Positions 59,065-60,148 of a DNA stretch of 64,000 bases are shown here, in pieces. Source of the stretch: Thermoproteota archaeon (lineage in GTDB: Archaea > Thermoproteota > Methanomethylicia > Methanomethylicales > Methanomethylicaceae); NCBI GenBank assembly GCA_029887795.1, contig JARXPE010000001.1, positions 65,386 through 129,385 of the forward strand. Reading direction: 5' to 3'. The notes beneath the pieces are model-generated. The model was given only the letters and a program-made list of their open reading frames with translations. It did not search any database and was not told where the DNA came from. The translations under genes and the position numbers were made by a program. Each line of letters begins with the position of its first letter. The first letter of the stretch is position 1.

Positions 59065-59817
59065 CTAATTTGTATGACTTGAATTTTGGCTGCAGACCGG
59101 ACAGTTTAGATTTCTTTTTATGGTGATCTCTTGGAAACTCATATCCGCACCATCGTAGACCAGGAGTCGTCCCACCGCAGGGGTTCCTATTCCAGTAATC
59201 AGTTTTATCGCCTCAGTGGCTTCAAGACATCCCATCACGCCCGGAGTTGTCCCTAGGACGGGGAACTGTTCTGGCTTTGGAGGTTCGCCGGGGTACATGC
59301 ATTTTAAACATGGACCTTTATGGGGAATTATCGTCATGAGGTACCCCTCCATCCCGTAGACTGCGGCATAGATGTATGGTACTTTGTTTTTTACAGCAAA
59401 TTCGTTGATGATCATGCGCGTCTGGAGGTTGTCCTGCCCGTCCACGATTATGTCGATTCCCTCCATCAGATCCTCGATGTTTTCTCCTGTAATTTTTTCA
59501 TTTATAGCATCAATACGCACGTTCGGGTTAAGGAGCGAGAGTTTCATTGCGGCGGATTCGACCTTCGGTCGATCTATGTCGTTGCTCCAATGTAAGATCT
59601 GCCTGTTAAGGTTTGAGAGTTCGACAACATCGCAGTCTATGAGACGCAGATACCCTACACCCGCGGCTGCAAGATAAAATGATGCAGGACTCCCAAGACC
59701 GCCTATCCCAGCGACCGCAACCTTGGCAGAAAATAATTTTTTCTGACCCTCCAATCCAAACCCACGAAGCATCATCTGACGGCTGTACCTGACGAGTTCA
59801 CGATCCCCTAGTTCCAT
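59065..59817 (-). CDS. E1-like ThiF/MoeB/UbaA family adenylyltransferase
   Basis: VAGIGGLGSPASFYLAAAGVG, DxxNLQTR, CLKCMYPG and CPVCS Zn-site cysteines. Confidence 0.95.
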   Translation of the reverse strand: MELGDRELVRYSRQMMLRGFGLEGQKKLFSAKVAVAGIGGLGSPASFYLAAAGVGYLRLIDCDVVELSNLNRQILHWSNDIDRPKVESAAMKLSLLNPNVRIDAINEKITGENIEDLMEGIDIIVDGQDNLQTRMIINEFAVKNKVPYIYAAVYGMEGYLMTIIPHKGPCLKCMYPGEPPKPEQFPVLGTTPGVMGCLEATEAIKLITGIGTPAVGRLLVYDGADMSFQEITIKRNLNCPVCSQNSSHTN

Positions 59818-59849: not shown

Positions 59850-59862
59850 AAATAAATATTTA
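59850..59862 (+). promoter_or_regulatory. putative TATA box of tRNA-Cys transcription unit
   Basis: AAATAAATATTTA about 25-30 nt before the tRNA 5' end. Confidence 0.5.
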
Positions 59863-59884: not shown

Positions 59885-59960
59885 GCCAGGGTGGCCGAGC
59901 GGTTTAGGCGGCGGGCTGCAGACCCGCTACACTGGGGTTCGAATCCTCACCCTGGCTCCA
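59885..59960 (+). tRNA. tRNA-Cys (GCA anticodon), U73 discriminator, CCA encoded
   Basis: GCCAGGG/CCCTGGC acceptor, GCGGG-CTGCAGA-CCCGC anticodon arm, TGGGG-TTCGAAT-CCTCA T arm, TCCA 3' end. Confidence 0.95.
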
Positions 59961-59971
59961 TCGGTGATTAT

Positions 59972-60148
59972 ATGGGAATGAGTTCTGAACTGAAGGAGAC
60001 TATTGGAGAACTGATCAAAATTTTGAATGTGCTAAGAAAAACCTCTCCAAACCATCAAATGGGTGATGGTCAAAAAGAAGAGGTCATCAGGGCGTTGGAC
60101 AGTGCAAGGAGACGACTGGAAAAATTGAGAGAAGGGATAACCACATGA
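59972..60148 (+). CDS. 58-aa helical protein of unknown function, coupled to SepCysS
   Basis: MGMSSELKETIGELIKILNVLRKTSPNHQMGDGQKEEVIRALDSARRRLEKLREGITT; ATGA overlap with the next gene; the listed longer ORF runs into the tRNA. Confidence 0.65.
   Translation: MGMSSELKETIGELIKILNVLRKTSPNHQMGDGQKEEVIRALDSARRRLEKLREGITT

Follow-up and report, generated by a model that had tools for sequence, protein, structure and literature searches.

SepCysSn, a 58-residue homologue of the SepCysS-binding domain of SepCysE and a probable SepCysS subunit in a Methanomethylicaceae archaeon

The 64,000-nucleotide stretch of DNA analysed here (the window) comes from contig JARXPE010000001.1 of a Thermoproteota archaeon of the family Methanomethylicaceae (assembly GCA_029887795.1). 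Between a tRNA-Cys gene and the SepCysS gene (pscS) it encodes a peptide of 58 amino acids, which is homologous to the N-terminal, SepCysS-binding domain of SepCysE. It belongs to the peptide family named SepCysSn by Mukai et al. 2017 (PMC5424206). SepCysSn is likely to be a dedicated subunit (a clamp) of SepCysS, rather than a bridge between SepRS and SepCysS. The original prediction, made from the DNA letters, had proposed a possible adaptor of the transsulfursome; a conserved, coupled SepCysS partner homologous to SepCysE is supported, a miniature bridge is not.

Homology, which the original prediction could not show, is established by profile, hhalign and Foldseek comparisons. A profile built from an alignment of 14 SepCysSn orthologues was compared with 177,635 PDB sequences, and its best match is MJ1481, that is SepCysE, over residues 49-97 (E-value 2.9e-5). 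DUF2100 (PF09873) is matched by eight of the 14 members, with a best E-value of 1.4e-4. With hhalign, the same alignment matches the full-length SepCysE whose gene adjoins that of SepCysS in Jordarchaeia/Freyarchaeota (E 2.3e-5), and it matches the N-terminal part of SepCysSN-SepCysS fusion proteins (E 6.7e-16). All aligned forms (separate, fused, unlinked, and full-length from Asgard archaea) have Arg22 and Pro26 without exception; in the SepCysE of Methanocaldococcus jannaschii, as placed by the profile-PDB alignment, the equivalent of Pro26 is kept and a tyrosine occupies the position of Arg22.

The fold agrees. The AlphaFold (AF2) model of SepCysSn is a hairpin of two helices (residues 3-24 and 32-57) with a pLDDT (predicted local distance difference test score) of 94, which confirms the two helices predicted earlier. 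A Foldseek search of 350,542 PDB chains returned five top matches that are all SepCysE N-terminal domains, with a root-mean-square deviation of 0.9-1.0 Å. SepCysE (MJ1481, DUF2100/PF09873; PDB 3WKR, 3WKS, 5X6B and 5X6C) thus shares with SepCysSn both the fold and the register of its two-helix SepCysS-binding domain.

Single-sequence phmmer and Pfam scans of SepCysSn gave weak or chance helical matches only, and an NCBIfam scan gave no match for the peptide. Three other matches were set aside: a phiKZ head protein family (Pfam, E 0.0022), found by three of the 14 aligned members and below the cut-off; TAL-effector repeats, a PDB match of the full-length SepCysE profile that sums weak repeat matches; and a SepCysSn match in genome G151 (E 8e-4), which is a charged coiled coil, from a genome that has no SepCysS.

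SepCysSn is a separate gene directly before SepCysS. Its reading frame runs for 58 codons from an ATG at 59972 to a TGA at 60146-60148, and the ATG of SepCysS at 60145 shares four nucleotides (ATGA) with this stop, which bears out the overlap given by the original prediction; the overlapping gene is indeed SepCysS (TIGR02539, 508 bits). A strong archaeal Shine-Dalgarno sequence, GGTGAT, lies 3 nt upstream of the start codon. The arrangement GGTGAT-N3-ATG is found 11-12 nt past tRNA-Cys in eight related loci (L003-L010) and also in L080-L082, one of which has a somewhat wider gap. The start at 59972 is supported because this spacing is conserved and because the alternative ATG at 59978 is absent from L003. 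An 85-residue, GTG-initiated frame (59891-60148) in frame with SepCysSn is an artefact and an annotation trap, its start lying inside the tRNA-Cys gene. The ratio of nonsynonymous to synonymous divergence (dN/dS) of SepCysSn is 0.28, 0.22 and 0.11 in comparison with L003, L004 and L005, respectively, against ~0.02-0.03 for SepCysS and the same relatives. SepCysSn is therefore a real, constrained gene that evolves faster than its partner.

Orthologues occur beside many SepCysS genes, as the original prediction had asked to be checked, and of the refuting outcomes that it named, none that could be examined was observed. In a survey of 25 other genome loci encoding a SepCysS relative, a separate frame of 56-60 amino acids lies directly upstream of SepCysS in 13. 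These are in Methanomethylicota (L003-L010), in Bathyarchaeota, Candidatus Methylarchaceae and unclassified archaea (L018, L020, L021, L022) and in Methanoregula (L027), and the 4-nt overlap with SepCysS is present in 10 of them. At four further loci (L019, L023-L025) the SepCysSn domain is fused to SepCysS, at four (L013-L016) a full-length SepCysE precedes SepCysS, and at the other four neither was seen. Of 300 genomes sampled from the phylum, 34 have SepCysS, 27 have SepCysSn and 26 have both (Fisher p ~2e-29, in genomes that are not phylogenetically independent and with kinship uncorrected); SepCysSn adjoins or is fused to SepCysS in 22 of the 26. In the window's own family, all 19 genomes with a complete SepCysS have an adjacent SepCysSn, the twentieth SepCysS match (G181) being a fragment of 112 residues. 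Among the genome contigs searched, the closest relatives of the source genome are metagenome-assembled genomes of Candidatus Methanomethylicota (Verstraetearchaeota); its SepCysS and the SepCysS of isolate SKW203 share 94% identity.

A different arrangement is seen in a sister family (f5; G097, G115, G121 and G216), where SepCysS has no adjacent SepCysSn. These genomes encode unlinked SepCysSn-like proteins of 69-74 amino acids with the R-x-x-x-P-x-[YH] core of SepCysSn, each flanked on one side by a sugar gene (glycosyltransferase-4 or another) and on the other by the gene of a T2SSE-like ATPase. A profile of the four sequences has MJ1481 as its best PDB match, in the same register (E 0.025), and aligns with the SepCysSn profile by hhalign (E 7.6e-9). 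The five best PDB matches of a model of the f5 protein are SepCysE N-terminal domain chains, a result that is not independent, as the alignment used SepCysSn rows. Throughout the phylum sample, unlinked SepCysSn-like matches are confined to genomes with SepCysS. This suggests that SepCysSn acts in trans and is more than a coupling device. In the literature searched, we found no description of a SepCysSn gene unlinked from SepCysS.

It could be argued that the small frame serves chiefly as a coupling leader, which determines how fast SepCysS is translated, with little role for the peptide itself, and the ATGA overlap kept in many loci would fit such a function. The constraint at the amino-acid level (the invariant Arg22 and Pro26), the natural fusions to SepCysS and the retention of unlinked copies in f5 make this explanation highly improbable.

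In M. jannaschii, residues 1-24 of SepCysE bind SepRS, residues 35-101 bind SepCysS and residues 111-213 bind tRNA; removal of the N-terminal helix abolishes SepRS binding, and no binding of tRNA-Cys is detected when SepCysE lacking the C-terminal domain is combined with SepCysS (Chen et al. 2017, PMC5688128). SepCysSn has neither of these outer parts, nor the linkers of SepCysE: its two helices align to SepCysE 49-97, with no SepRS-binding helix ahead of them, and its frame stops after the domain, where the tRNA-binding domain would follow. No full-length SepCysE was found in the source genome (92% complete, so that absences from it are provisional), and no PF09873 match above the cut-off in it or in 40 related genomes.

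The other side of the contact is altered as well. The original prediction was right that the window holds neither SepRS nor a full-length SepCysE; SepRS is encoded elsewhere in the genome (contig C36; L094:2683-4260(-), 614 bits). Of the three loops of M. jannaschii SepRS that receive the N-terminal helix of SepCysE, two are lacking in this protein: loop 1 (ILDEF) reads TTEEG, loop 2 (FNGE) aligns to LVGG, and loop 3 (ALVSN) is mostly deleted, leaving a 5-residue gap. Methanococcus maripaludis, which has SepCysE, carries VMDEI at loop 1 and AFVSN at loop 3 of its SepRS. The SepRS of Archaeoglobus fulgidus, an organism not known to have SepCysE, is without both loops. This distribution of SepCysE is consistent with PMC8762117.

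These observations bear on the idea that SepCysSn is a minimal bridge without the N-terminal helix, contacting SepCysS through one of its faces and, through a different one, SepRS (alternatively CysRS or a sulfur donor). Its membership of the family of the scaffold SepCysE and its retention beside tRNA-Cys and SepCysS are in keeping with this, but the peptide has no SepRS-binding helix, SepRS lacks docking loops 1 and 3, and deletion of the helix abolishes SepRS binding in M. jannaschii (PMC5688128). A bridge is thus unlikely, and a clamp-like SepCysS subunit is the better explanation, because both halves of the SepRS-SepCysE contact are largely absent.

Binding of SepCysSn to SepCysS is supported indirectly, by the natural fusions and by the co-occurrence of the two genes. 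As a clamp, the SepCysSn hairpin would most likely dimerise and lie at the two-fold axis of dimeric SepCysS, where the SepCysE N-terminal domain likewise lies in PDB 3WKR, 3WKS and 5X6B. It would be a permanent small subunit, produced in matched amounts through translational coupling, tethering neither SepRS nor tRNA, and would probably stabilise dimeric SepCysS and keep its substrate cleft in shape. The tRNA-Cys, SepCysSn and SepCysS would be expressed from a single operon, and SepRS, whose gene lies elsewhere, would deliver Sep-tRNA-Cys (Sep, O-phosphoserine) by diffusion or transient contact.

A role in substrate handling, beyond stabilisation of the dimer, is rather unlikely. SepCysSn would then shape the opening that admits the acceptor stem of the tRNA, or keep out wrong Sep-tRNAs, a possibility raised by the position of the SepCysE domain on the dimer axis (PMC5688128) and by the reading of U73 of tRNA-Cys in the SepCysS cleft. 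Yet the SepCysE(del_CTD)-SepCysS complex has no measurable affinity for tRNA-Cys (PMC5688128), and neither PSTK nor tRNA-Sec was found above the cut-off in the source genome, so that there would be no rival Sep-tRNA-Sec to exclude; cross-talk between selenocysteine and cysteine synthesis was set aside on the same ground.

Several points weigh against the clamp interpretation. The single-sequence Pfam match lies below the gathering score (17 against 23 bits), and significance rests on the family profile. The dN of SepCysSn (0.16-0.22) exceeds that of SepCysS (0.03-0.04), which is unusual for a tight obligate subunit. Some genomes with SepCysS, for example G109, G204 and G228, have no detectable SepCysSn, and the peptide is therefore not universally required. 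Finally, SepRS may make a transient contact with another surface of SepCysSn. In G109 (L050:1222-2649), tRNA-Cys adjoins SepCysS across a 161-nt gap without SepCysSn, and none was found elsewhere in that genome; loss or strong divergence is the likely reason.

The notion of a SepCysS partner is not itself new. PMC5424206 and PMC8762117, the only two papers returned by a full-text literature search for SepCysSn, report the order tRNA-Cys-SepCysSn-SepCysS in Candidatus Bathyarchaeota BA2, there followed by SepRS. In the genome studied here, by contrast, SepRS stands in a separate cluster with EndoV (Pfam-confirmed), Taw1/TYW1-like, HTH (helix-turn-helix)/riboflavin-kinase-like and FAD-synthase-like genes (all but EndoV by inspection), resembling the most complete operon described in PMC8762117. 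The accessible text of the two papers mentions SepRS of Verstraetearchaeota V1-V5, but SepCysSn of V1-V5 was not found named in it, and no biochemical test of SepCysSn was found in the literature searched. In the SepCysSN fusions (e.g. L019, L023, L024, L072 and L073) the same hairpin precedes SepCysS within one polypeptide, whereas SepCysSn and SepCysS are two coupled genes. PylSn, as described in PMC5424206, is likewise small and separate, an adapter peptide that serves a minor coding enzyme and is fused in some lineages; its partner and tRNA are different, and no homology is claimed.

SepCysSn may mark a separate, non-channelling version of the pathway in which SepCysS works with a small clamp subunit in trans: one family has moved its SepCysSn gene away from SepCysS, and the SepRS of the source genome lacks two docking loops. 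On this view the scaffold role of SepCysE would have been added later, or lost in many lineages; we regard this as a little short of an even chance. With the identity of the small gene settled and the window tied to a described peptide family, the source genome offers a clean system, comprising a 58-residue peptide, its enzyme, the tRNA and a SepRS lacking the known docking loops, in which it becomes testable whether channelling is required for tRNA-dependent cysteine synthesis or whether a SepCysS clamp suffices.

Table 1. Features of the SepCysSn locus (window positions) and unlinked SepCysSn-like genes (locus positions)
Feature	Coordinates	Strand	Evidence or remarks
TATA-like element, probable operon promoter	59850..59862	+	AAATAAATATTTA; unique in window at <=1 mismatch
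tRNA-Cys, anticodon GCA, G37, discriminator U73, encoded CCA	59885..59960	+	ARAGORN; sequence
Shine-Dalgarno GGTGAT of SepCysSn	59963..59968	+	GGTGAT-N3-ATG layout kept in nine loci
SepCysSn, 58 aa	59972..60148	+	Homologue of SepCysE N-terminal (SepCysS-binding) domain; profile, hhalign, Foldseek
ATGA stop/start overlap (translational coupling)	60145..60148	+	Sequence; kept in L003-L007, L018, L020-L022, L027
SepCysS (pscS), 401 aa	60145..61350	+	TIGR02539 508 bits; PRK09331 567 bits; PDB 3wkr_A
Unlinked SepCysSn-like genes, sister family	L067:2829-3044; L068:2561-2770; L069:2754-2963; L070:1573-1797(-)		

SepCysS aligns to 3wkr_A with an E-value of 2.5e-122, including the pyridoxal phosphate lysine and the catalytic cysteines. 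The gap between the end of tRNA-Cys and the SepCysSn start codon is 11 nt, and ~10-14 nt throughout the window's family. Since 11 nt is too short for a usual second promoter, tRNA-Cys and SepCysSn, and with them SepCysS, are likely to be co-transcribed. The TATA-like element is probably the promoter of this unit; the same or a nearly identical element occupies the same site upstream of tRNA-Cys in L003-L005, L007, L008 and L010. Divergent from the operon lies a ThiF/MoeB/UbaA-like E1 gene (59065-59817(-)), possibly sulfur-related. Upstream of SepCysSn in two other loci, genes called by ARAGORN as tRNA-Ser (L020:3624-3716) and tRNA-Leu (L022:3513-3605) read as tRNA-Cys with an anticodon-loop intron of ~18 nt. 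In f5, SepCysS lies between an HTH-CBS gene and thiI (L047-L049, L051 and L052; Pfam check in L048), which suggests that its neighbours are linked sulfur-relay genes.

SepRS, SepCysS and a tRNA-Cys with G37 and U73 are all present in the source genome, as in the indirect SepRS-SepCysS pathway to cysteine. A CysRS of 390 amino acids is also encoded (G000:C37:38279-39352(-), L095), matching positions 1-373 of a 466-position model, so that both routes to Cys-tRNA seem to be available to the organism. At G000:C1:148341-148966(-) (L093:1839-2467), a second tRNA-Cys, 97% identical but lacking an encoded CCA, precedes the gene of a free-standing protein with a tRNA-Thr editing domain (PF08915, E 3.9e-39). 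The pair recurs in G193 (L098), a genome of the same genus. The PF08915 protein is a candidate trans-editor of Ser-tRNA-Cys.
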